A stretch of DNA of 64,000 nt from Lepidurus packardi. Lineage: Eukaryota; Arthropoda; Branchiopoda; Notostraca; Triopsidae. Every line of letters starts with the position of its first letter. The stretch's first letter is position 1. The DNA lies in assembly GCA_023053545.1 (NCBI GenBank), contig JAKZAN010000007.1, positions 8,928,001 through 8,992,000 of the forward strand, in the 5' to 3' direction. A program made the translations under genes and the position numbers. The notes under the pieces are model-generated. The model saw only the letters and a list, made by a program, of their open reading frames with translations, was not told where the DNA came from and did no database searches. Of the stretch, positions 1-59,237 are shown piece by piece.

Positions 1-732
1 ATATCGTATCTTGTTTTGCATTTTACATCCAACCTTGCCTGGATCTAATGGCAAGTCACATTCATGTACTTTTGATGTACGCGTATAGGATAAGCAATGG
101 TTGGTCCACGGCGGTAATCCCCGTTGTCTCGATGCCGACCTGGCACGAAAGGAACTCTTCGTGTCCACCTGCAATGAAAACGCCGATACCCAGAAGTGGG
201 TTTTTGAACATTTCAACCGTACAGCATTACTGCTCTTTGATTCTTCAGGGCCTGATGTCTAAATTTTTTGCCATAGTAGGCCACAAATATTATTTTTTAA
301 AGTTTTTATTATTATTGTTGTTGTTTTATCCCGGGAGCGGCCAGTTGTAAACTTTTGGCCGTTGACTTTTTAAAAAGACATTATAATGTAGCATTCCGTT
401 TTTAACCAAAACTGCAGTGGCACTAAGCTTTTGTTATGATTTGCGTGTGATGAAACTTGTGCCATGGCTCACAAAGATGGTATTACCACGTTTGAATTGA
501 GAATAATTGTTTTTCTTTGTAATTTAAGTTGATTCATGGTGCCTTATTGTAAAGGAAACTGGGATTGCGTTCTTTACCTTGAACTGATTGGGGTTGGGGT
601 GTAGTAAAAACGTTTTGGTCACAAAGTGTGTGGCAGAAATGCCAAGGCAATCGATCCTTTCTCCAGTGCCAGTAGTTGATTTTGCCTCATGTTTGTGATA
701 CACGAACCCACATGTTCACTTGACTCAAATTC
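1..732. other. Non-coding flank, nothing recognised
   Basis: No reading frame with protein-like composition, no RNA gene and no clear repeat is seen. It lies about 2.9 kb beyond the stop codon of the minus-strand E78 gene, so it is probably intergenic. Confidence 0.5.
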
Positions 733-1145
733 ATCGTCCATTTACACATTTACGCATTTACGATAGACAGAATCAGAGTTCTAGTATCACTTGGAATTTG
801 TACCAGTTTTCCAGTCTTGGGACTCTTCTCGGGAATTCTTGGGAATCTTCTCGACGCGTTTATAATTCCGTACAACAGCATAATCATCCGCACTCTTACA
901 AGTACTAACGTAACACTGTAAAAGCGTTCAAATTCGCTATTTAAGTACATTTCACATTTACACATTTACGACAGAATCATTCTAGAATCGTTCTAGTATC
1001 CACTTGGGATTTGTACCAGTTTTCCAGTCTTGGGATTCTATCTTCTCGACGCGTTTATAATTCCGTACAACAGCATAATCACCCGCACTCTTACAAGTAC
1101 TAATGTAACACTGTAAAAGCGTTTCAAATTCGCAATTTAAGTTTA
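733..1145. repeat. Two-copy tandem duplication, ~205-220 bp unit
   Basis: The first copy runs from about 733 to 955 and the second from about 956 to 1145. Both contain the strings ttgtaccagttttccagtct and gacgcgtttataattccgta and end with a run around gtaacactgtaaaagcg. The copies differ by small indels, for example an extra gggaattctt segment in copy 1. No coding potential is seen. Confidence 0.85.
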
Positions 1146-1667
1146 GTAGAAAGTTTGGGTAGTATGAGTTTATTTTGAATTTTAGCGCCACTCTAGCGGC
1201 AAGTTTTGGTACTATATTGGCTGTTATGGTGCATGGATTGAAACACGTAAGACGTGTTGCTTTGTGATCAATTGTGAGGTGAGTTTCTCTGTGTTTAGTT
1301 CCTGAAGCCTTTAGTGTGTATCATGTGTGTTTGTCCGAAACTCCGGTGTAGAATTCATGTGTTTAAAATGGAGTGATATGCTTTTGATTGAGCTCTGGTA
1401 TGTAACTTAGAATCTTAGCTGTCATTGGAAAGCTTAACATGTGTCTTCTAATGTTGTTTTGACGATAAGCAACTTAGGGAAAACAGCACTTACCAACTGC
1501 TTTCCACTATACATGGTTCGCTCTCTATTCGATCGAAATGGAACTTTCACAAGCTTCTGCAGTTTGGAGTTCCTTATTGTACGTTATTCATTGTTGAATC
1601 TCGTTGGATTTCAAGCCAACATCAAAAGGTTTTGTAAGCACGGGAGTCTCTGTTACTTATGATTAGT

Positions 1668-1966
1668 AATGCTACCTATTATTGTTAGTACTTATGATTA
1701 GTAATGCTAATGCTGATTAGTTTTGAGATAGAATGCAAAAGTCTTTCTTGTGAGAAAAAGAAAAATGGCGATGGAAGAACACGTTTCACGGGTCGAAGCT
1801 CGTGCTACCTATTATTATTAGTACTTATGATTAGTAATAGTACTAGTAATGTTATTTATGATTAGTAATGCTAATGCTGATTAGTTTTGCATTAGAATGC
1901 AAAAGTCTTTCTTGGGAGAAAAAGAAAAATGGCGATGGAAGAACACGTGTCACGGGTCGAAGCACG
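1668..1966. repeat. Two-copy tandem duplication, ~150 bp unit
   Basis: Both copies contain gattagtaatgctaatgctg, then aaaagaaaaatggcgatgga and cacgggtcgaagc. The second copy has an internal expansion of the gattagtaat motif. It is AT-rich and non-coding. Confidence 0.8.
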
Positions 1967-3593
1967 TGGCTTCACGTTATTATGATTTTACGCCATCTTG
2001 CGTCATAAATAGTATGTTTTAGGATCCCTTCAAGTGCGATTCCTTCCCCAGGGGCTTATTTTCGCTCGGTTTGGCTCCAAGTTTTATGTACAATCATGTT
2101 TGTTGGGAGTTTAGGATTTTTGCACGATTCTCAGAATTCAGTGACGGGAAAGAGGGGATAAAAGATTGAACATTGAACGGAACGAGGCTTTTTCCTTGAG
2201 GCGGAGTCAAAGTTCAAATGGTCGAAAATAATCAATTGGACCCAATCTGTCCAAAACTTCCTAACAGACTTCAGGGAAGAAGAATGTAAACCGTAAAAAG
2301 GACCCAAACTGTTGAAAGCAATATGCATTAGACTCTCAATTCTTGGAATGGGAACTTGATGGATGATGGATCAAACGTCGGATGCACAAGTAAAAGCTCC
2401 GTCCAAGTCTTGAAATTGTTTATTTTTTGATTTCTTGGAAAAAAGAATGATCCTCTTAGTGGGCGGGGTGTTTTTCTTTGCAAGAATATATCCCTTTTTC
2501 AACTTTTTTCTCCCTTAAAATTGGATGTCTTGTACATTTTAGTAAGTTTTTAAGGTTTGTCTTTAAACGACCTCCTGGTTGTGTTTCTTTGTCCCAAATC
2601 CCATAGCCAACAATAGGTAAAAAAAAAAAATCTATCCTGGAAAGAACAAATCCTTTGCTTGCATAAAGTCACGCCAACAATTCACCACACGTGACAACAA
2701 ATTTGCAAAGATACTAGGTACACACAACAACACTGTTGTCCCCAAATGAACTGGGAACTGACTTTATGGTTATATAAATAAAGGAGTATAACAAATAGAG
2801 CTTGACTATTTACAAGAGGGCGCCACGTGCAACTATGTCTGTATAACGAGAACTCTGCCAACACTAACTGTATATTTTGTTACCCAAGTTCAAACGCTGA
2901 AAAAAGTAAAAAAAAAAAAAAAAATAGACAAGACACAGAATTTACTGTAAAAACACGAGCTTTACAGAAAAAGGCGAGTTAAGGCTGTTATCCACAAGGC
3001 AACTCGGTTTTCCATTTGCATATAGGCTTAAGTTTGGTTTCTACACTTTGTCAATCCCTCCATGAATCTAGCTCCAGATTTTCGCAAGTACGTTTTTTAT
3101 GATTTTTTCTTCCCCGCCTCTCACCCTGAAGGCCGATACCAGAGAAATTCAAGAAAAACACTTGAAAACGGGGCAGAAATGGGTTTCCAGCTTCTCTTAT
3201 TTGGCCCCCGTAGGCCGGAAATCCATTTAGAGTGTTTGGTTGTCACTCATTGCTTAGGCAATGGAAACTCTTGTTTTCTCTTCAACCCTTTTGCACGATA
3301 AATTAATAAATAAAAATATTTTGCTTCCGCCAGAAATATTTTTTTTGTGGATCAGGTCCATAAACGTAATGTAAACACAAGTTTCGGAACATTGCCATCT
3401 GGCGGAAGTTATAAATGGCCACAGGAATTTTTTTTCTCTTGAGGTTCTTTTTGCTGGGGTTAAAAGGGGGAGAAGTTTAGGTGAAGAAGGCACTTGCATT
3501 AATGACGAAGGAGTTTTGGGTGTTCACCGCCCCAAATGACGTGACAATGGGACTTCTGACCCCATTATTGCTTTATTGCTGCAGAAATGGTGG
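1967..3593. other. 3' flank and probable 3' UTR of E78
   Basis: This stretch is downstream of the E78 stop codon on the minus strand. A minus-strand AATAAA lies at 3572-3577, only 17 nt past the stop, and may be too close to be the one used. Poly-A and poly-T runs occur near 2617 and 2910. No other gene is recognised. Confidence 0.4.
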
Positions 3594-6500
3594 TCAAAGT
3601 AGGTCTTCTTCGCTTTTGGGCACGTCGAACATCTCTGCGAAAAGAGGAGGCAAACGCAAGAGTGGCCAGCGACGTCGATACCAATCTAATAAAGCTGCAT
3701 GACGAGAGCCCATGGATCGAAGCTCGGCCAGGCGCGAAAGAAGCGTGCCTATTAGGCCCGGATCACTCGCGTGGTTGCGAACCAACTAGAAATAAAGGGA
3801 AATGGTCAATACAAAACAATACACGAACGATACAGGAGCCAGTTCCCGCTCGTAGCGTTGCTTACTTGTAAACGTAAAGCCTCTAATAGTTTCTCTTGAT
3901 GTAAACTAATCGTTTTGGAGTCCGTTAAGCCCGGACGGTCTGGACTGAGGAGAACAATGGCCGACACCAGCGCCATTTCTGTGTCGTTTAAAGCTATCGT
4001 TGCCACGCCGGAGATGAATGTAAATATCGCGTTGGCGTAGTCCGGCTGCAGAAATAACCGAACAAGAGAAATTAAGATTTCATAAAATTCAAACTTTTTT
4101 CAAATTTTTTTCTTTCGATTTCTGAAGATTTTTCTTTCGGATTTTTTTTTATTCGTAACAATTTTCTATTTTGGAAATCACTTTTTGTTAGGCAAGACTT
4201 CTTATTTCTGGATGGCTTATTGTGATTTAAGATTTATTTTAGCTGATACTTTGTTTTTTATTTCTATCCCTATTTCTGGAGTTTTTTATTTCTGATTTTT
4301 TTTATTTCTAGCGATTTCTTTTTTCTGATTTTTTTTATTATCCAAGGCTTCTTACTTCTGGATTTCTTATTCTGGAACTTTTAGTTTTAGCTGATATTTT
4401 ATTATTATTTCTTTTCTCCTATTTCTTAAGGTTTTTATTTCTGAAGATTTATTTCTGATTTTTTTATTTCTAGCGATTTCTTCTTTCTGATTTTTTTATT
4501 ATGCAAGGGTTCTTATTTCTGGATGTCTTATTCTGGAACTTTTAGTTTTAGCTGATATTTTATTATTATTTCTTTTCTCCTATTTCTTAAGATTTTTATT
4601 TCTGAAGATTTATTTCTGATTTTTTTTATTCGTAACAATTTTCTGTTTTGGAAATTATTTTATTAGGCAAGACTTCTTATTTCTCGATGTCTTATTGTGA
4701 CTTAAGATTTATTTTAGCTGATACTTTGTTTTTTATTTCTATCCCTATTTCTTGAGTTTTCTATTTCTTATTTTTTTTTACTTTTGATGCTTTTTATTTC
4801 TGATTTTTTTTATTTCTAGCGATTTTTTTTATTATCCAAAGGTTTCTTACTTCTGAATTTCTTATTCTAGAAGTTTCAGTTTTAGCTGATATTTTATTAT
4901 TATTTCTTTTCTCATATTTCTTAAGATTTTTATTTCTTTAAGATTTATTTCTGATTTTTTTATTCGTAACACTTTTCTATTTTGGAAATTACTTTTTATT
5001 AGGCAAGACTTCTTATTTCTGGATGTCTCATTGTAATTTAAGATTTATTTTAGCTGATACTTGGTTTTTTTATTTCTATCCCTATTTCTTGAGTTTTTTA
5101 TTTCTGATTTTTTTTTATTGTCCAAGGCTTCTTACTTCTGGATTTCTTATTCTGGAAGTTTTAGTTTTAGCTGATATTTTATTATTATTTCTTTTCTCCT
5201 ATTTCTTAAGATTTTTATTTCTGAAGATTTATTTCTGATTTTTTTTATTCGTAACAATTTTCTGTTTTGGAAATTATTTTATTAGGCAAGACTTCTTATT
5301 TCTCGATGTCTTATTGTGACTTAAGATTTATTTTAGCTGATACCTTGTTTTTTATTTCTATCCCTATTTCTTGAGTTTTCTATTTCTTATTTTTTTTTTT
5401 ACTTTTGATGCTTTTTATTTCTGATTTTTTTTATTTCTAGCGATTTTTTTTATTATCCAAAGGTTTCTTACTTCTGAATTTCTTATTCTGGAAGTTTCAG
5501 TTTTAGCTGATATTTTATTATTATTTCTTTTCTCCTATTTCTGAAGATTTATTTCTGATTTTTTTTTATCCGTAACAATTTTGTTTTGGAAAGTTTTTTA
5601 TTAGGCAAGACTTCTTATTTCTGGATGTCTTATTGTGATTTAAGATTTATTTTAGCTGATACTTTGTGTTTTATTTCTATCCCTATTTCTTGAGTTTGTT
5701 ATTTCTTATTTTTTTTACTTTTGACGGTTTTTTATTTCTGATTTTTTTTTATTTCTAGCGATTTCGTATTCTGGAAGGTTTAGTTTTAGCTGATATTTAA
5801 TTATTATTTCCTTTCTCCTATTACTTAAGATTTTTATTTCTGAAAAGTATTTCTGATTTTTTATTTCTAACGATTTCCGCTTTCTGAATATTTTTTTTAT
5901 TATCCAAGCCTTCTTATATCTGTATTTCTTATTCCGGAAGATTAAGCTGATGTTTTATTTATGATTTTATGTTCTATTTATGATTTTAGCTGATGTTTTA
6001 TTTATGATTTGTTTGTGTTTGTTTCGGAGAGTTTTGAATTTCGTGTAAAAAGTATGACTTACGTCGAACATAGTTTCCACTTGCTGTCGTGTGACAGAGG
6101 TGCCATCTGAGAAGGTGAGCATTTGTTCAGCCGTTGTCCTGGTCACGTGACTGAGCCAAACTTCAAAGAAGCCCACTTTGATGAGAATTAATTGGTCGTC
6201 TTGGGACAGTTCAGAGAAACCTAGATTTACCATAGAGAGCATCTATGAGTTTCGAGTTTTCTTCCAGTGTCTCCGTGTTTCCGTTAGAATCCGTTAAGGT
6301 TTCAAAAATAGTTCCCTACCTGGTACTCTCTTGGCGAATTCCACCACTTGTTGAATAGAAGGAGTCATATGAGAAGCAAAGGACGTCCATAGAGCCACTC
6401 TGTGTCCGTCCGCTGCGTCAATGGATGCGTTGGCAACGCCGGGAACTAGAGGATTGCTGTCCTCTAGCGGTTCCTTTAAGAACGTTCGAGCGATTAGTCA

Positions 6501-9500
6501 AATCAGAACTCCCTTAGAAGGTTAAATTGTGAAAAATAACTGCTTGAAGGATTTAACTCACGATTTTCATGGGTATTCTCACCAGGCCACGGGTTTTTTC
6601 TTCAGTGTAGGAGCAGTTGGCGTGGTAAGCTTGGGAGATGGTTAGAATGGTATCGTAGATCGCCAGTTGTCGGGTTTCAGGGTCTCGCGATAATCCAGCT
6701 AACGGAGTGTGGGGAGCGCTTCCTGGACTGCCGGCGTCGTTGGGTCCATCGGAACCTAAAGAACTGCTCCGGCCGTCTTCCACGGCAGAATTACGTTCTC
6801 GGGATCGTTTGGGTACACGTCCGTACCGAACAGCTTTTCGGGCAAAACCAGAAGAAATGTAGGAGAAAGGGAGAAACAATGTTTAAAAATAGAGACGGAA
6901 AAGAAAAAAAAGATCAGGTCTTTTAGGCTTACAATCTCGAGACATTCCTACTGCGAGGCATTTCTTGAAGCGGCAGTACTGGCAGCGATTCCGGTTAAGT
7001 CGGATCACTAGGCACTTGCCATCGCGTAAACATCGGTATTCGATCTGTTTTTGAATGCTTCGCCGGAAGAAACCCTTCAGAAGTAGAAAAGAAACGGTGG
7101 ACATAACGTTAGGAAAATATGCTGGACATAAACACTCGATGTTCTGGTCGCCTTGCTTACTTTGCATCCTTCGCAAGAAGTGACGCCGTAGTGGTAGCCG
7201 GATGCTTTATCGCCACAGACTTTGCAAGGCACAAAGGATTTGTTGGGAGAAGAGTTAGAGTCCGCTGGCGAAAAGTTTTGTTCTGCAAGAAAAACAATTT
7301 ATTTAATCTCCCTAGTTCTTTAGGATTTAAGCGCAGTTGAATCAATTCTGTGCTTTGTTTATCGAGTTAGTTATATTTAGCACCACTAGATGACTCAGTT
7401 TATGGTTTCCAAGGCGTGAACAGATTGTACTTGGGTTTGATTGTAGATTACGTAAGTAATTAGCAAGCCAAGAAATGTAAGAAAATTCCCTAATAATCTA
7501 CATGCACGCGTTTTTATTTCCTATTTATGTTTATGTTCTTGTTTAGATTTGTACTTGGGTTACTTTGTTTATGGATTTAGTTATATTTAGCGCCACTAGA
7601 TGACTCAGTTTATGGTTTTCCAAGGCGTGAACAGATTGTACTTGGGTTTGATTGTAGATTACGTAAGTAATTAGCAAGCCAAGAAATGTAAGAAAATTCC
7701 CTAATAATCTACATGCACGGGTTTGTATTTCCTGTTTGTGTTTATGTTCTTGTTTAGATTGTTACTCACTTTAATAATGAAGTTCTGACTCTTATTAAAG
7801 CCAGTAAATTGCAGGGTGTAGATGATATAAGAATATGACTTAAGTATGACTTAAGCTTCTAGCTAGGTTAGAGATTATCCGTTTGTTTATGTGTTGCTCT
7901 AATCCTGCGCATAAAGACCCCTGGGGGGTTGAATCACTAGAGAGCCGTTTTCTTTAGCACAGCGTTGCACTTTTCTGGTTGTATGTGGTTGTAAGGGCGT
8001 GTTTGGGTTGGTTCCTTTTTTCTTTTTACGCAAAACTTTCTCACCAAATCCCGTTTTAAATGCTGACAACCCTCTTCGTATTTTCTCTTTTTTTTTTTTT
8101 AAAAAAAAAAAGGCTTGTACGCCGCAAAATAGGGGCGTGGGTTTTAGGGTGAATTGGCGGTTGTAATTCGAACTTGAAGCGTAGCAGGATACCGCAAGAA
8201 AAGTTACTATTGCACTTAACGAGCGTCTCGAGCCAAAGGAAATGACTGCAACGGGACTTGTTGAGTTGCATCTCCACACATTTGGGTCTGCGATATTTTT
8301 ATTTTAGCTTTCGCTTCCCAAGTTAACGGTACGCATCGAAATAGAGAGTTATGTGTATAACCGAACCGCCCTTTATGTTTTTTTTACCACCTCTGACTCG
8401 TGCTTTGTCCGTCAAGAAGCGAAGCGCCACGGTTCATGGAACAAAGTAATTCTAACGGTTTAACGCGTGAAAACTTGCTCCAGGAAGTCAATTTACGGAG
8501 TCGCCGAGCAATCGTAGAAGTGTTTGCAAACATAAACAAATTGTCAGGCTTTATTCTTGCGTAACAACAGTTACATACTATCTGGCTTATTATACTTCAC
8601 GGCTTACTTTAATTGGAATAGATTAAGAGATTAAAATCTTGTGAAAGAACTTGTTCAAAGCTAAACTGGTTTTGTATAAACTGATAAGCAACTTTTCCTT
8701 GTCACTGGCGGATTAAAGGGGAGATATATTTGCAGTATTCAGTGTTGCGTAATTACAGTTAAAATATTTACTGCACGTTGTTCGGCTTTCTGACTTTAAA
8801 CAACTCGATATCGTGTTAAGTAATCGATTAGATTGTATCTTCGATTAACTTAACATCGTCTAATCGAACAGATAACATTGAATTTACATTGGTTTTGGAT
8901 AAACTAATAAGCAACTTTTCCTTGTCACTGGCGGATTAAAGGGGAGATATATTTGCAGTATTCAGTGTTGCGTAGTTACAGTTCAAATAGTTACTGTACG
9001 TTGTTCGGCTTTACGCCTTAAAACAAATCGATATCGTGTTAAGTAATCCATTAGATTGTAGTATCTTCGATTAACTTAACATCGTCTAATCAAACAGATA
9101 ACATTGAATTTACATTGTTTTGTGTAAACTAATAAGCAACTTTTCCTTGTCACTGGCGGATGAAAGGCGAGATATATTTGCAGTATTCAGTGTTGCGTAA
9201 TTACAGTTACAATATTTACTGTACGTTGTTTGGCTTTACGCCTTAAAACAACTCGATATCGTGTTAAGTAATCGATTAGATTGTAGTATCTTCGATTAAC
9301 TTAACATCGTCTAATCGAACAGATAACATTGAATTTACATTGGTTTTGGATAAACTAATAAGCAACTTTTCCTTGTCACTAGCGGATGAAAGGCGAGATA
9401 TATTTGCAGTATTCAGTGTTGCGTAATTACAGTTCAAATATTGACTGTACGTTGTTCGGCTTTACACCTTAAAACAACTCGATATCGTGTTAAGTAATCG

Positions 9501-33170: not shown

Positions 33171-34735
33171 TGGAGCTGCTCGGATTGTGTTCGAATGGGA
33201 ATGCTAGAGCAATAAAGCGAATGGTGAAAAGAGGCAGTGAAGACAGGAAGAAGATGTATTGAAAAGACGTGGGAATCCTCTCGGCTCCTTTACGTAGCCT
33301 TGCAGTAGATGGATGAGGCTGTCTCATTTGTCATAGACGTCTCAAGCAGTCGCTGTTCTTGTACGTTGGTAGCGTCGACGCCTTCAGTCCCTCGGCGTGA
33401 CATCCTTCACCACCACCATGCTCTTCTATTTTGAAAGTGACGTACAAATCTTCGGCGTGGGTTATCTGACAGCTCTCTTTTTGACAGGATTAGCTTGGAT
33501 TTTCCCAGCAACTCAAATCCATCAACTTTTCAGTCGAAACTTTTGTTTTTGAAGGCTTTAGGTAATTAACGTTTTCCTAATTAGTTATAGCCTGTGCTCT
33601 GATCTCTAATTAGCAAGTTTAGCGTTTCTTGAAGTGTAGCCCTAAAAAAAACAATTTTGATTTTCTTCTCAAGAGGCAAGGATATATGCTATTACTTTCT
33701 TAACAGTTTCCTAATTCAAAACCTGCTCCAAGATGTACTATCTCTATAGTAATGGCGTTCATGCGTAGAGAAGGGAAGTTCATGTTCATAGTTTCGCTTT
33801 CCGAAGCAATTCATTCATTTTTCGTAAGAGTCCTGGCTTTGAAGCTAGGATCACTTTACAGATAGATAGTCGTCGCCTTGCGTGCGGTTTCTGGGGGTTA
33901 TTGGGTTCTTGAATGCGAAGGAAAAACGAAGAAAAACGAAATGGAAGAAAGAAGTACATTTCTGCGTGGGGGAGAACGCCAAAGGGAAGATGGAAGATGT
34001 ACAATACCCTCCTCGTCAGTCTACAATGTACGGTTTGAGTGTAGACGGTGCACTGTTTGTTTAATGAACCCAAAACTAGCTTCAAAGAGCTCTCATTAAC
34101 ACACCATCATCCGCTGACATGCTGACCAACTTTATCGCAGTGAACCAAGTTGCTTTGTGCCCTCCTGGTTTGCACGGGGTAACTCACTACCTGCCCTATA
34201 GTACGGTACTCAACTGTACCTCCAGTGAACCGTAGAGTTTCATTGTTGAGATTCTTGTGATTCTCTTGTGATTCACTTGTATTGCTTCAATGCGTTTCCA
34301 GTTAGAATAATTGGGAGAATCGGAGTAACTTCCTTAATGTCATCTATTTCTGTCTTATTTTGGTCAGTTTTGGAAGAGCAAGTTAGAAAGGGACATAGAC
34401 ATGTGTATTAGACATTAGAAAGGGACAGACAGAAGGACTGCGAACACAGACTTAAGGACGACAATACAATAGAACTTCACAACGACACTATTCATAAACA
34501 GAGACTAGCTGGTGAACTTAGAAAAATATTGCCCTTTTGTCGGCATGGGTATTCTTAATTAACAATTAGCTTCAGATTTTTGACTTCAGACTTCCAGTCG
34601 TCATTCCTTGCGTCTTACCTACTTACCTAAAGAAAGTTTGTACAAAAATTTCGATCCAACGCCGATGTCCATAGCGCTAGCGATTATTGTCGTCCTAGTA
34701 AAAGAGTCCGTCGTCCTTAAGTCGGGGTTTGTAGT
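33171..34735. other. Intergenic, nothing recognised
   Basis: It is mostly unique sequence. Overlapping short frames on both strands at 33786-34099 show no recognisable domain. A small repeat of tgtgattctcttgtgattc occurs near 34257. Confidence 0.4.
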
Positions 34736-34739
34736 CCTT

Positions 34740-35905
34740 AAGTCGGGGTGGCATTGCGACGCAAGGACGACTCAACAAAAGGACTCCGTGTCCCCGACGC
34801 ATGGACGCCGGGCCCCGACACAAGGACGCCGGGCCCCGACAGAAGGACGCCAGGTCCATAATCTTTTAAGGGACCAATATAAATTTCTAGTTCAAACAGT
34901 CTCTCCTCATTGGTTAACCGCCAACACGATTAGAAAGTGCTTAAGCCGTATTAAAAAATACGTCACAACGTTAGGTTAGGTTTGCTTAGGCTTGGTTCGG
35001 TTCGGTTAGGTTACGCGTCCTTCTGTCGGGGTCCAAGTCCGTTTGTCAAGTCGTCGTTGTGTCTACTTTCGGTCGGGCTTTGTAGTCCTTAAGTCGGGGT
35101 CCATCGTCCAACGTACGCAGTACGGTTAGGTTTGTTTAGGCTTGGTTAGGTCAGGTTAGGTTACGCGTCCTTCTGTCGGGGTCCAAGTCCTTAAGTTGGG
35201 GTCCATCGCCCTTGTGACGTAATTTATAATACGGCTTAAGGCTCCCGTATTCCTTAGCTTCTTGATGGGAAAAAGTCACAGATGGCACTGATGTTTGTTA
35301 TTGTTTTGCGAAAGCCAGGCGTAAGCAAAGAAATAGATAGCTAATTGCCGGCAAAGTTTCTGCTCTTGTTTCTCTTCTGAAAAGAACAATTTGTCACCAC
35401 AGTTTGCTGCAGCAGCGCAATGTCTGAAATCGAGTCGCCAAACATTCGGAACCAGATTTCTTGAAAACGGCTCGTCAGATTTGAAAGCCAACTAAAACGA
35501 AAGTTTTCTTTTATTGGCAGCTAGTGCAGATTTCTATTTAACGTATTTCTCATGATACAAACTTCATTTTCATATTGCTAATTTATTACTCATTACAAAA
35601 AATTGTGCATTGGTTGTACCCTACATGTTAGCAAGCTCAAGATTGCTGTCAAAGAATTTCTTCATTAAAAGCACTGGTTTTCTCAAAACGTTGTTCCGAA
35701 TTCCTCATGCTAACCGTCTATACCGAGCTAAGCTACACGGGAGAGCCTTAATCACTTTTAACCTCGTTGGCGCTTAACCAATGAAGAGACTTTTTGAACT
35801 CGAAATGCTATTGGTCCCTTAAAATATTCTAGAGCTGTCGTTCTTGTGTCGAGGTCCGTAGTCCTTGCGTCGGGTACAGCCTAGTCCTTGTGTCGCATTG
35901 CCTTT
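34740..35905. mobile_element. Foldback element with GTCCTTNNGTCGGGG subterminal repeats
   Basis: Two long imperfect inverted arms face each other. The left arm contains, in order, ggcattgcgacgcaaggac, several ccccgacacaaggac-type repeats, ttttaagggaccaat, ttggttaaccgccaac (34858-34935) and gcttaagccgtattaa (34940 onward). The right arm shows the complements in reverse order: gacgtaatttataatacggc, then (after an insertion) ggcgcttaaccaatgaagag, attggtcccttaaaat and gtccttgtgtcgcattgcc. Between the arms, a block reading ggttacgcgtccttctgtcg occurs twice (near 35009 and 35158). No transposase is seen. The right arm is split by the MITE at 35240-35747. Confidence 0.75.
35240..35747. mobile_element. 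508-bp MITE with TTAA target-site duplication (piggyBac-like)
   Basis: TTAA lies on each side (35236-35239 and 35748-35751). The left end reads ggctcccgtattccttagct; the reverse complement of the right end reads ggctctcccgtgtagcttag, so the terminal inverted repeats match apart from a 2-nt gap and a few mismatches. The left arm of the host foldback keeps the uninterrupted site (gcttaagc within its complement), which shows that this segment is an insertion. TTAA specificity is typical of the piggyBac superfamily and also of Kolobok. It has no coding capacity. Confidence 0.83.
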
Positions 35906-46500: not shown

Positions 46501-49500
46501 CTACGGCGAGACCCAATGGAGACAACAGGCACATCAAGCCCTGGATCAGATGGAAACGTACCATGATGAAGTCCGGAAGAATTTCTTGGCAACTTTGAAT
46601 TGGCTGCGTGAACATGCGTGCTCTCGAACGTACGGTTTAGGTAAATTACAATAATGACTGAATTTTTACCCTATTTCTTACTTTCTTAGAATTTTAGAAA
46701 TAGGGTAAAATTTCTAGAATTTTCTCTACTATTTACCCTATTTCTTACACCTTTTGGTAATTTTTGAGTAAGCTAGTAGTTTCTAGAAAACTCAAAAGAT
46801 ACGCAAAAATGAATTCAAAGGATTTTAAATTAAATTCAAAAGATTTTAAATTAAATTCAAAGAAAATTCAAAAATAATTCAAGATATATCAAAGAAAATT
46901 CAAAGAAAATTCAAAATTCAATTCAAGGAAAATTCAAAAATAATTCAAAATTAAATTCAAAGAAAATTAAAAAATAATTCAAAAGAAAATTCAAAGAAAA
47001 TTCAAAAAGAATTCAAAATTAAATTCAAAGAAAATTCAAAAATAATTCAAAATTAAATTCAAAAATAATTCAAAATATATCAAAATTAAATTCAAAGAAA
47101 ATTCAAAATTAAATTCAAGGAAAATTCAAAAATAATTCAAAATTAAATTCAAAGAAAATTAAAAAATAATTCAAAATATATCAAAATTAAATTCAAAGAA
47201 AATTTTTCAAAAATACGATTTTTTAGAAAATTCAACATAATTACGATTTTTTACTGTATTTTCTTTTTTATTCTTTTCTAAAAATTCAAACTAATTACGA
47301 TTTTTACCCTATTTGTGAATAGTTCGTAACATCTTCTAGTTTCTAGAAATTTCCAAATTAATCAAAAATTTTTGTGGTCTTAGGAACGAAACTTCCATGG
47401 GATCCTCAGTATTTTAAATTAAATTAAAAGAGAATTCAAAAATAATTCGAAATATTTCAAAATTAAATTCAAAATAAAAATTAAATAAATAAAAAAAAAT
47501 TAAATTAAATTCAAAGAATTTTTTTTAAAATACAATTTTCTAGAAAATTCAATATAATTACGATTTTTTTACTGTATTTTTCTATTTTTTCTTTTTTTTA
47601 TTATTTTCTAAAATTCAAACTAATTACGATTTTTACCCTATTTCTGAATAGTTCGTACATCTATTTCTGAATTGTTCGTACAGTTACCCTAATAGTTACA
47701 TCTTCTAGTTTCTAGAAAATTCCAAATTAATTACAATTTTTTGTGGTCTTAGGAACGAAACTTCCATGGGATCCTCAGTGGTTGATTGAATCCTTGTCGG
47801 ATTCCACGATCTATATGGCGTACTACACGGTAGCTCATCTACTCCAAGGAGGAACTTTAAATGGGAAAGGCAGTAGTCCATTGAATATCAAGTGAGTTCA
47901 AATAAGCGTTTTTTAGTGAAATGAAATTCTAATTTTGTGAGGTTTTTTTTCAAGAGCGGAGGAGATGACACCCGAAGTTTGGGATTACATCTTCTTTACC
48001 AAGTCTCCTGCACCGAAAACAAACATTTGTCAAGCTAGTCTGGATAAACTTCGACGCGAATTTCAGTATTGGTACCCGGTGGATCTGCGAGTGTCAGGCA
48101 AAGATCTGATTCCCAACCATCTGACGTACTACTTGTACAACCACTGCGCTATTTGGCCTGAAGAACCCAAGAAATGGCCTCAAAGTGTGCGAGCCAATGG
48201 ACACTTGCTCCTGAACTCAGAAAAGGTGAATTTCGAAACTTTCTGTCACCAAATTATCGAATTAAGTAATGTATACATACGTAAATAAGTTTTTAAATAT
48301 GTAAATAAGTTTTTAAATACGTAAATAAGTTTTTAAATATGTAAATACGTTTTTAAATATGTAAATAAGTTTTTAAATATGTAAATAAGTTGTTAAATAT
48401 GTAAATAAGTTGTTAAATATGTAAATAAGTTGTTAAATGTATTTTTTTCGATAGATGTCAAAATCTACGGGCAACTTTATGACTTTAACTGAAGCTATTG
48501 AGAAATTTAGCGCTGATGGAATGCGTTTGGCCCTGGCTGATGCTGGAGATTCCATCGAGGACGCTAATTTTGTAGAAGCCATGGCTGATGCTGGTAATTT
48601 ACACTATTTTCTTAACTTTTCATTATCGAAGTTTGAATTTATTTTATTTTAAGGATTGCATTTATTTAAGTATTTTTATTTATTTTTTACTTTTTTTATT
48701 TATTTTTATTTTAGGAATTTTGCGTTTGTATACGTTGATTGAATGGGTGAAGGATTGCATCAATTCCCTGGACACGTTGAGACAAGGGGAGTTGAACTTT
48801 AATGATCGGGTTTTCAAGAAGTACGTACTTTGCATCAATTTTCATCTTTCATCAACTTTCTATGTTTTGATTGTCATGTTCTGTCGTTTCAGTGAGATGG
48901 AATTCCAGGTTGAGGAAACGAGACAACATTACGAGCGTATGAATTTCAAAGAGGCTTTGAAGTCGGGCTTCTTTGAGTTCCAAGCATTACGAGATCAGTA
49001 CCGAGAGTTCGTTATGGGTGACATGCACCGCCGGTTGATTTTGGAGTACATCGAGCGCCAAGCGTTAATTTTGTCTCCCATTTGTCCTCATGTTGCCGAG
49101 CATGTTTGGACGCTTCTAGGAAAGGTACAGTTGGATTTTGTTTACTTTCAGAAGCTGAATAACATTTTTTTTCCACGTTTAGAAGGAAAGTGTGTTGCGG
49201 TCAGCGTGGCCCAAGGTTATAGCAGCGGATCCTGTTCTTCTGAAAGCGGGATCATACTTGAACGACGCTGCTCACGATTTCCGACTTCGTTTAAAGACGT
49301 ATTTGAACTCGCTGACTGCCAAAGCGACTAAAAAGGGAGCAGCGGCTCTCCCACCAGCGCAAAAACCGACCCATGCCAGCATTTGGATTGCTAAAACGTA
49401 CCCGAAATGGCAGTCGATCATATTAACTACGTTGAAAGAGAAATATGAGGTAGTTCCATTACTTTCAAGGCAAAATTGAGACAATTTCTTTGATTTTCTG

Positions 49501-53146: not shown

Positions 53147-54467
53147 ATGGCTCTAAAAGGAATCAGAGTCATAGAAATGGCAGGGTTAGCTCCTGCACCG
53201 TTTTGTGGAATGATTTTGTCCGATTTCGGGGCTTCGGTCATCCGCGTCGATAAAGTAAGCCACATTTAAACTAAAAAAATTACGTTCTTGTATGAAGTTA
53301 CACACCTTAGCTAGACAGCGTTCCTATGGATCGACTCGGCCGCGGCAAACGCTCCATCGCAATAGATTTGAAAAGTCAGAATGGACTCGAAATCGTTCGG
53401 CAACTGTGCGGCAAAGCGGATATCCTGATTGAGCCCTTCCGACCTGGTAACTTGAAACACATTCAAATTCTTTCCCTTAATTCCATTCTCGTTTCGCTTT
53501 CCTTTGCAGGAGTCATGGAGAAGATAGGTCTGGGTCCCCAAATCCTCACCAAAGAGAATCCGCGTTTAATCTATGCTCGATTAACCGGATTCGGCCAGAA
53601 CGGTCCTTTTTCGCAAATGGCGGGTCATGATATAAACTACGTAGCTTTATCGGGAATGCTTTCCATGCTAGGACGCACCCCTGCTAACCCCATAGCTCCG
53701 CAGAACCTCTTGGCCGATTTTGCAGGCGGAGGCTTATTGTGTGCTTTAGCAGTAGTTATGGCTCTCTATGAAAGATCCCAATCAAGTTTGGGACAAGTGA
53801 TTGATGCCTCCATGGTCGAAGGAGCAGCCTACGTTGGCTCTTGGTTGTACAAGTCACGTGACTTGCCAGTATGGGGTGCCGGTCGCGGCCAAACTTGGTA
53901 AACCAATTCAAATCTCGTATCCTCCCAGACGTTTTAAGTGACAAATTCGTTAGGTTTGATGGCGGACTCCATTTCTATGAGACGTACGCAACCCAAGATG
54001 GGAAACACATGTCTGTTGGAGCAATTGAGCCCAAGTTCTACGCCGAGCTCGTAACGGTGATCAACCAACACACAAGCACACCTTTTGATTACCCGCAATT
54101 TCCGGAGGATCCTAACCAAGCCAAAGCAGATTTAGCAGCCATTTTTGCGCAAAAAACGCGAAAGGAATGGAGCGATATTTTCGCAAAAGCAGACGCATGC
54201 GTCGTGCCAGTGCTGTCGCTAGACGAAGCGCCTGTACACGCCCATAATGTGGAAAGAGATTCGTTTGTTTATAACGAGAAAAACGAAAACTATGAACCAA
54301 ATCCTGCTCCGATCTTCTCGAGAACGCCTGGCAAGTGTTCCTTGGCAGAGCCCGTTATCGGGCAGCATTCGGTTGAGATTTTGAGAGAATTCGGGTACAA
54401 GGAAGGAGAAATCCGAGATTTGGTTGGCAAAAGAGTTATTTCAAAAATTCAAAATGCCAAACTGTAA
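53147..54467 (+). CDS. Alpha-methylacyl-CoA racemase, 4 exons
   Basis: It interconverts (2R)- and (2S)-methylacyl-CoAs so that branched-chain fatty acids and bile-acid-type side chains can enter beta-oxidation. It belongs to the CoA-transferase family III fold. Exons are 53147-53254, 53311-53446, 53510-53897 and 53954-54467, in phase, giving 381 aa (human protein 382). Family phrases include [35 protein letters not shown] and [14 protein letters not shown]. His121 (in GHDINY) and Asp151 (in LLADF) align with the human catalytic pair His122/Asp152. The C-terminus ends in AKL, a variant type-1 peroxisomal signal, so a peroxisomal location is expected. Exon 2 starts at the upstream of two adjacent acceptors (cttag|ctagac), the one that keeps phase. 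Confidence 0.95.
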
Positions 54468-56868: not shown

Positions 56869-59237
56869 TCAAAACTGGATAGGTTGGTCTTTGCACTTAT
56901 CGATGACGTACTGGGTAAACCTCTTGAGAAACTTGGGATATTCCCGCTTGTATACAGCACGAAGGGCCGACGTAGGAGCCCAGCCCCCAGGATTCACTAC
57001 AAGAAACACCCATTAAGATGGAACCAAATTACCAAAAAAACGTGGGAAAGTAACGTACCAACAGCACAGTAAGTAATCTTGCAGGTGAGCCTGTCTCGGG
57101 TGAGAGCTTCTCCTTCAGCAGGCGGGTCTAAGAACGTTTGACAGACCAAACAAGCCGTTAATCCCACCCGCACACACTTATTAGCGCCAGCCTGCCAAAT
57201 GAAAACGCAATAAAACTCGGTCCAATCGGTAATCTTCAACCCGACTTCTGCAATACTTACAGGCGCCTCTGAATGCGACGTGGAGTTATTGCAGACAATC
57301 CAAATGTCATGTCCATCCCTGTCCTGCTCATTAGGCACACGACGTACATGGGACCAGAACAATGAATCACGTTGGGAAGCTGGCCAAATCCGTTTATGGA
57401 TTTGGAAAACGACGTGCGTGTCCTCCGCGACAGTTTCCAGTACTTTCAAGTTCTCCACCGTGCCTATGCAAACCATAAAACATTAGCATAAGACTTGTAG
57501 AACTAATAAATTAACACAAGATTGGGCTTTACGAACAATCATTGCCAGAAGTGATTTACAAGAGTTAGAAGCCGCGTTCGTTTTGAACCTTCACTAGTCA
57601 GACTTCCTTGACTTACACTTATAAGCGTTCGTTGTAGCCTAAACTTGGAAATTTTACATGTCGACTTGTAAAGTCTCGAGTTTAAAATGAACGCTTATAA
57701 GCATACGTTTACAATTGCTCCACCCATGGGGCGGTGCTTGAAGAAAGTAAACAAAAGCAATATAGGAATTGTTCGATATCGACTAAAGAGATAAGTAAAC
57801 AAAGGGGCGGGGTTAAGTTTAAGTCTGGGCACTAGAGTCTTGCCTGACTTGAGACCAAAACTAAAAGTCAACTTTAAAGAAAACTCTAATATGCCCAAAG
57901 TCTGGCAAAGTCCACCTATCTCGAACGCTTAAAAGCGCGAAGCAGACTTTTAAAAGTCGGCTTAAACTTTCGTCGAAACGCGACTACATTGAGCAGCTTT
58001 CTAGCTAAAAACTTACTTTCCCATTCTAGTCGGACTGAAGGATCGTAAAAGTAATGACAAAGTTCCCTTCCAGTGACTCCTTTCACAGTATGAACTGCTT
58101 TCAAAGGATCTACAGCGAGTCCATTCACCTCTTCTTCGCGCTTATACATTCGCATTTCACCATCTTCCGCGAACAGTTGCCACACGCCGTCTTCTACCCC
58201 TTTTAAGGCATATTCCAATTGTTCGTGTGAAACGCGATCGATCTGGTTCACGGTACAAAACAGTTATAAAAGTTGTAAAAATCTAGGTCACAACCCCACA
58301 AATTTTAAAATTGATTGTTTACCTCCTTCCACAAGGGATGCGCAGAGGATTTCGAGTTGAATTTCGTTCCCTGCTTGGCACGGAGACGCTCGTAAAACTC
58401 TTGTTCTTCTTCGAGTTTATCCAAGCCTGTTTCAACTGCGTCATAAAACTCTTCTTCTCCGATCGTACTGTGCGGCCCTTCCTAAGAACGGATATGGCCC
58501 AACAATGAATTAGAATGCGTTAGTACCTTGAAACAACATCGCAACAGCTGTTCAGTCAAAATAAACTGTCATAAAAGCTACGTAACACAACAGTTAAAAA
58601 GGAGTAATAGGGAAACGAAACAACAATGAATCTAAATGAAAAAGATTACTTTACTGCGTTATAATTCGATTATCACGACCGCGATTCTACTTGCCCTACA
58701 TAAAAGTCATATTACCCGTTTTTTCCTCCAGCAATTTGTCAACGAGCCACCAACTTTCCACGTTAATGCTTTACGCGGCATTATTTTCCCATGAATGCCT
58801 AAAGGCTCTTCAACCAAATTCTCGTTTGCTCTCAACGCTTTTCTCCCTTTGACCTTTTATCTCCGATATACTGTACACCGAAACCCAACACCATAGGGCG
58901 CTACTCAAAGCCCTCAGGCACTTTGACCCATGTAATGCGGGATGAAGGAAAGTGAACTTTTAAAAGCGAACGTTGAGCTAGATTCGAACTTGGAAATGCG
59001 TAAAATTGCGGTAAAAAAAGTAAAAAAAAGTAAACAAAAATTCGAACTTGGAAATGGTGCGTAAAATTGCGGTAAAAGAAGTAAAAAAAAAAAATTCGAA
59101 CTTAGAAATGGTGCGTAAAATTGCAGTAAAAAAAGTAAAAAAAAGTATTAAAAAAAAAAAAAAAAAAAAAAAAGTAAAAAAAAAATTCGAACTTGGAAAT
59201 GGTGCGTAAAATTGCAGTAAAAAAAGTAAAAAAAAAA

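Follow-up and report, generated by a model that had tools for sequence, protein, structure and literature searches.

The TTAA-flanked element and its empty site

The window, by which we mean the whole 64,000-nucleotide stretch of the Lepidurus packardi assembly that was analysed (contig JAKZAN010000007.1, positions 8,928,001 to 8,992,000), holds a short element within the right arm of an inverted repeat, together with pieces of several genes farther along, namely a tRNA-ligase anticodon-binding domain (48588-49331), a CoA-transferase family III piece (53326-54467) and a START domain (56997-57476). Read directly from the window sequence, two TTAA tetranucleotides enclose 508 bp, or a segment of 516 bp when both are included, as in the original prediction of a 508-bp segment with a TTAA on each side. 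None of the six open reading frames of at least 150 aa in the window overlaps the element. The features of the locus, with the evidence for each in brackets, are:

34758..34968, + strand: left arm of the host foldback repeat (inverted-repeat list, genome search)
34941..34944, + strand: single TTAA in the left arm, the preserved empty site (window sequence, arm alignment, paralogous arms)
34969..35211, + strand: loop between the arms (inverted-repeat list)
35212..35235, - strand: right arm on the inner side of the insertion, paired with 34940-34968 as inverted repeat I5 (inverted-repeat list, arm alignment)
35236..35239, no strand: left TTAA target-site duplication (window sequence, arm alignment)
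35240..35747, + strand: 508-bp non-autonomous element (MITE), very probably of KolobokE type (alignment, family consensus)
35240..35259, + strand: 5' terminal inverted repeat, one mismatch against the consensus GGCTCCCGTATACCTTAGCT (consensus comparison)
35726..35747, - strand: 3' terminal inverted repeat with a 2-bp insertion (consensus comparison)
35748..35751, no strand: right TTAA target-site duplication (window sequence, arm alignment)
35752..35878, - strand: right arm on the outer side of the insertion, covered by inverted repeats I1, I2 and I4 (inverted-repeat list, arm alignment)

The left end of the element reads GGCTCCCGTATTCCTTAGCT (20 bp), and its right end, read inward on the other strand, is GGCTCTCCCGTGTAGCTTAGCT (22 bp), which carries two differences from the family consensus besides the inserted 2 bp. 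Over its whole length, both TTAAs counted, the element is 87.4% identical to that consensus, at a distance of 0.103 outside CpG. The imperfect terminal repeats noted in the original prediction are a property of this decayed copy and not of the family, whose consensus ends are perfect.

When the element is excised in silico, the right arm aligns to the left through ...AAAGTG(C/A)TTAAGCCGTATTA..., with one TTAA in place of two, which indicates that the TTAA was truly duplicated and does not merely happen to lie on both sides. A TTAA-flanked MITE nested in a foldback element, with its empty site retained in the opposite arm, is thus what the locus contains, as had been proposed. The host repeat fits the foldback type, its arms being inverted and multi-copy, and its loop carries a 67-nt direct repeat twice (34974-35040 and 35124-35190; 94%).

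Further copies of the arm were sought with positions 34600-35235 as query, and the best 40 of 345 candidate places were scored (93 rows). An inverted second arm lies at most 1.2 kb away in 11 of the 40 scored places, the window included (61 of the 93 rows used), and 11 of the 40 matches end exactly at the position equivalent to 34968, all of them starting within 34758-34763. An arm was counted as uninterrupted where the match started before query position 330, ended at 357 or beyond and differed in length by less than 40. By this test the TTAA position was crossed without interruption in 40/40 scored places, the window's left arm among them, although these, as the best scorers of the 345, are biased towards uninterrupted arms. 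Eleven paralogous arms from the best-scoring matches were read; none holds an insert at the junction, and five have the TTAA there (counted by eye). An arm without the insert exists, then, both elsewhere in the genome and opposite the element in the window itself.

Because every scored arm place is uninterrupted at the site, the simplest reading of these alignments is that the empty state is the older one and that insertion into the right arm followed the formation of the arm repeat. In the converse order the insert would already have been present when the arm was duplicated in inverted orientation, and the left arm would have lost it later by exact excision. The picture would be the same, and piggyBac-type TTAA transposases can excise without a footprint. 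We regard this order as very unlikely in view of the uninterrupted places and the insert-free paralogous arms described above, both sets being drawn from the best-scoring matches (40 of 345 candidates). The original prediction took the opposite arm as ordering the two insertions in time; this order is supported by the 39 other uninterrupted arm places, but to call it proved would be slightly too strong, since exact loss of the element from the left arm would give the same result.

A MITE family across the genome

Comparison of the 516-bp segment with the 108.6-Mb genome, in which the best 40 of 887 candidates were scored, gave 42 matches: that of the window, 39 to other copies (78-82% identity) and two to short pieces (89%). 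A 25-base end pattern allowing up to three mismatches matched 1,038 places in the genome (about 100 of which were listed individually) and none when reversed as a control. Short, non-coding, bounded by 20-bp terminal inverted repeats and present in high copy number according to these end matches, the family has the characteristics of a MITE family.

A consensus was built from the 40 best-matching loci, using one copy each and leaving out the extra short matches in two of them (L004 and L027). It measures 529 bp between the TTAAs and has perfect 20-bp inverted ends, GGCTCCCGTATACCTTAGCT. An exact TTAA adjoins the left end in 24 of the 40 copies, the right end in 25 and both ends in 14, the latter two counts including the window copy, which was read directly because its 2-bp insertion shifts the alignment columns. 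With TTAA occupying 0.8% of window positions, about 0.003 of 40 copies would be expected to have it on both sides by chance. In the other 26 copies the TTAA is not exact on one side or both, which we attribute to age. Outside CpG, the 40 copies lie on average 0.097 (9.7%) away from the consensus, which is not a value for the whole family since these are the copies that most resemble the one in the window. The search for other TTAA-flanked copies that the original prediction had recommended has therefore yielded a numerous family, with boundaries that coincide with TTAA sites far more often than chance would allow, and the refuting outcome named there (a lone copy, or boundaries away from TTAA) did not arise.

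The ends of the family were also searched for in other contexts. An exact-end search for places not continuing into the MITE returned seven places, all of which by eye still read as MITE continuation, and a looser search returned 31 places against one for the reversed control, of which 11 were read. Three MITE-type ends (G000:C1:6752762, C3:3813472 and C4:7282820) run into one similar, non-MITE sequence (TTAGCTCAGNGRTTC), which may mark a separate subfamily or an insertion that they share. Tandem arrays of MITE 5' parts occur in locus L082 (G000:C1:1391700-1399000) and locus L083 (1406000-1409000), and also in loci L081 and L084; many of their units start with TTAAG, and in L082 they are spaced about 180-280 bp apart.

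A probable partner element encoding a transposase and an exonuclease

An element with the same ends, the likely partner of the MITE (hereafter the partner), lies on the minus strand at 259-5095 of locus L076 (G000:C5:9609315-9619215) and is 4,837 bp long when both TTAAs are counted. Over 24 bp, of which TTAA forms part, its ends are the same as those of the MITE consensus, and its 5' end was one of the places that matched the genome-wide end pattern exactly. It lies 4.3 kb from one of the 11 places read in the looser end search. Farther inward, the last 353 bp of the consensus are matched at 88% (310/354 columns) by the 3' end, and the first 95-97 bp at 78% (76/97 columns) by the 5' end; the partner has nothing that significantly matches the middle of the consensus (about 96-184). 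A Pao-type retrotransposon frame (Peptidase_A17, integrase zinc finger) lies beside it, at 5999-8680 (-) of the same locus.

The partner encodes one intact frame of 976 codons from ATG (protein P0001). A Pfam scan up to E 1 listed three families for this protein, the transposase domain PF20700 (residues 174-544, E 6.2e-78), YqaJ (PF09588, residues 743-893, E 1.1e-20) and PF01771 (E 1.3e-9), and neither a THAP nor a piggyBac domain (PF13843 included). The YqaJ part matches exonucleases in the PDB, 3syy at E 6.1e-14 and lambda exonuclease 1avq at E 9.3e-5, and scores 49.7 bits against the NCBIfam lambda-exonuclease model TIGR03033, below the curated cut-off of 68.05. A candidate catalytic triad, picked by motif and not from an alignment, is formed by D350, D444 and E596. 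Following the first D as so assigned is a CCHC finger (C389, C392, H405 or H406, C407); a CxxH motif follows the second (CSNH, 469-472), and a candidate zinc finger picked by eye comprises H534/C535/H540/C543. The nuclease motif consists of PD at 826-827 and ExK at 837-839.

Four further copies of the partner, 99% identical to the element in L076, are present in the genome; together with that element, the five copies are:

C5:9609573-9614409: full-length copy, the query
C2:12029840-12034721: full-length copy
C2:1349402-1353883: copy without the last 400 bp
C5:9329093-9333416 and 9324836-9329093: two copies, short by 558 and 624 bp at their 3' ends, that face each other tail to tail as a palindrome

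All five contain a 981-codon stop-to-stop frame without an internal stop, and TTAA adjoins each of the seven ends that were read (five 5' ends and two 3' ends). Since the further copies are nearly identical and lie in other places, the partner lineage has moved recently; with five intact-frame copies, two of them full-length, it is a candidate for a functional test. The surroundings of the copies differ, save for a 9-bp word next to the TTAA that is common to one 5' and one 3' flank. This word, GGGGCTTTC, follows the TTAA in the 3' flank of the L076 copy and in the 5' flank of the copy in L089, and both copies possibly lie in one repeat family. The palindrome itself (G000:C5:9324836-9333416; loci L089, L090 and L091) spans 8.6 kb, with the 5' ends and their TTAAs facing outward on both sides, and could be real or an artefact of assembly.

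The pairing of a MITE family with an element that has identical 24-bp ends and encodes, in the same genome, a transposase fused to an exonuclease points to the superfamily Kolobok. Kolobok is supported and piggyBac is not, as judged from ends, target sites and predicted protein; more specifically, the window MITE and its partner fit the lineage KolobokE described by Kojima and Bao in 2022 (PMC9587614). According to the parts of that paper available to us, Kolobok termini are of the 5'-RR/YY-3' type, unlike those of piggyBac; in the Kolobok transposase a C/DxxH motif follows the second D, with a zinc finger between it and the final E; KolobokP, E, D and 5 and a few solitary families have a CCHC finger downstream of the first D; and KolobokE carries a lambda exonuclease-like nuclease with a PD-(D/E)xK motif downstream of the transposase domain. 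The duplication of TTAA (seen in the filled and empty sites of the window, in the 40 MITE copies and at the partner ends), the GG...CC ends of both the MITE consensus and the partner (RR/YY), and the CCHC finger and downstream nuclease of P0001 all resemble the lineage as it is characterized there; the CxxH motif after the candidate second D would agree as well. No difference was found in the features compared, the comparison being with the published description. The MITE family and the partner would accordingly fit as newly found members of an already published lineage.

Two other superfamilies were weighed as the source of the element. PiggyBac also duplicates TTAA, as seen at the window site, and a piggyBac transposase could in that respect have moved the element. 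We consider this extremely unlikely, because what lies between identical ends in the partner is a gene for a PF20700-YqaJ protein, for which the scan up to E 1 listed no piggyBac domain, and because GG...CC termini are of the type given for Kolobok as opposed to piggyBac in the accessible text of PMC9587614. PF13843 had zero candidates in the genome, yet it was silent in all 14 control genomes too, so that this search alone shows little. Of the two kinds of transposase with matching ends that the original prediction had proposed to look for, it is thus the Kolobok type, in the 4.8-kb partner, that was found, and not piggyBac. A Mutator (MuDR/MULE) transposon is suggested by the Pfam name of PF20700, Mutator-like transposase. 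To this reading we give almost no credence: the duplication in the window is the 4-bp TTAA and all partner ends read adjoin TTAA, whereas MULEs make duplications of 8-11 bp as summarized in the portion of PMC6446971 at hand (the corresponding portion of PMC13359780, on arthropod MULEs, states no length). The Pfam name is in this respect a label. We also considered that a Mutator transposase with YqaJ might define a new TTAA superfamily, since among the papers searched none names PF20700 and none joins YqaJ, transposase and Kolobok; this reading was dropped, given that PMC9587614, in the sections available, describes KolobokE as having a lambda exonuclease-like nuclease.

Assignment to KolobokE can be set beside three further published systems, each taken from the available part of its source. 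KolobokP belongs to the same superfamily and has the CCHC finger (PMC9587614). The Xenopus T2-MITE (Xmix; PMC6004289), likewise a TTAA-flanked MITE family assigned to Kolobok with purines at its 5' end, is the nearest MITE parallel found, but T2 ends are AGGRR and Xenopus Kolobok transposases usually bear a THAP domain, which was not listed for P0001. ISL2EU of the PHIS superfamily (PMC4482050) is a eukaryotic DNA transposon with a YqaJ exonuclease domain; there, however, YqaJ occupies a separate ORF, the transposase bears THAP and the duplications are AT, whereas the partner has TTAA and YqaJ in one frame with the transposase.

Origin of the window copy and related transposases in the genome

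As a whole, the locus is best explained by 35240-35747 being an old non-autonomous copy of a cut-and-paste DNA transposon of KolobokE type, a reading that we hold to be very probable from the sequence comparisons. It links a MITE family to a probable source lineage in one genome, and the window also supplies an empty-site control. The MITE shares with the partner identical 24-bp ends, the last 353 bp at 88% and, less closely, the first 97 bp at 78%, and thus has the appearance of an internally deleted relative. A transposase of the P0001 type would bind the GGCTCCCGTATACCTTAGCT ends and move the MITE in trans, cutting and joining at TTAA with a 4-bp stagger that would leave the TTAA duplicated. 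The exonuclease domain may trim or process DNA ends in transposition or repair, and the insertion would have hit the right arm once the arm repeat had formed. As the partner has no significant match to the middle of the MITE and resembles its 5' part over a short length, a sister of the partner element may be the ancestor of the MITE. Today's partner copies are probably not those that spread the MITE, as they are 99% alike and look too young compared with MITE copies 9.7% from their consensus; the spread was probably the work of an older member of the lineage.

The tail-to-tail partner palindrome and the tandem arrays of MITE heads allow one more speculative reading, namely that the exonuclease fused to the transposase in these KolobokE elements contributes to inverted and tandem duplication of the elements' own ends. 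We think this unlikely; if true, the lineage itself would breed transposable foldbacks.

PF20700 and YqaJ are frequently joined in this genome. PF20700 has 68 matches (69 candidates, all scored) and is matched in none of 14 control genomes, and YqaJ has 80 matches (82 candidates, all scored) and is matched in two of the 14. In 56 of the 68 PF20700 matches YqaJ lies within 1.2 kb downstream on the same strand, in 42 of them in the same open frame, and 38 of the 39 PF20700 frames of at least 800 aa are fused to YqaJ. Two other such families are present in highly similar copies, one of 864 aa in 14 places (99-100% over 1.5 kb) and one of 930 aa in nine (98-100%). Upstream sequences of 1,558 bp for the former (L094, G000:C2:774143-775700) and 1,500 bp for the latter (L095, C5:9182560-9184059) served as queries, and the matches extended up to the query's distal end in 15 of 16 places and in most of 43 rows, respectively. 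As the matches of both families extend past these queries, short of the element ends, TTAA is shown for one PF20700 family, that of the partner. We suggest that PF20700 ("Mutator") proteins joined to YqaJ include TTAA-targeting KolobokE-like elements, in which case annotation by Pfam name could misfile the superfamily of such elements.

The 864-aa family has a 176-aa frame upstream on the opposite strand. Elsewhere in the genome, one contig (L065, G000:C200:1-2000) starts with a telomere-like run of CCCCAA repeats, with 43 CCCCAA words in 2 kb.
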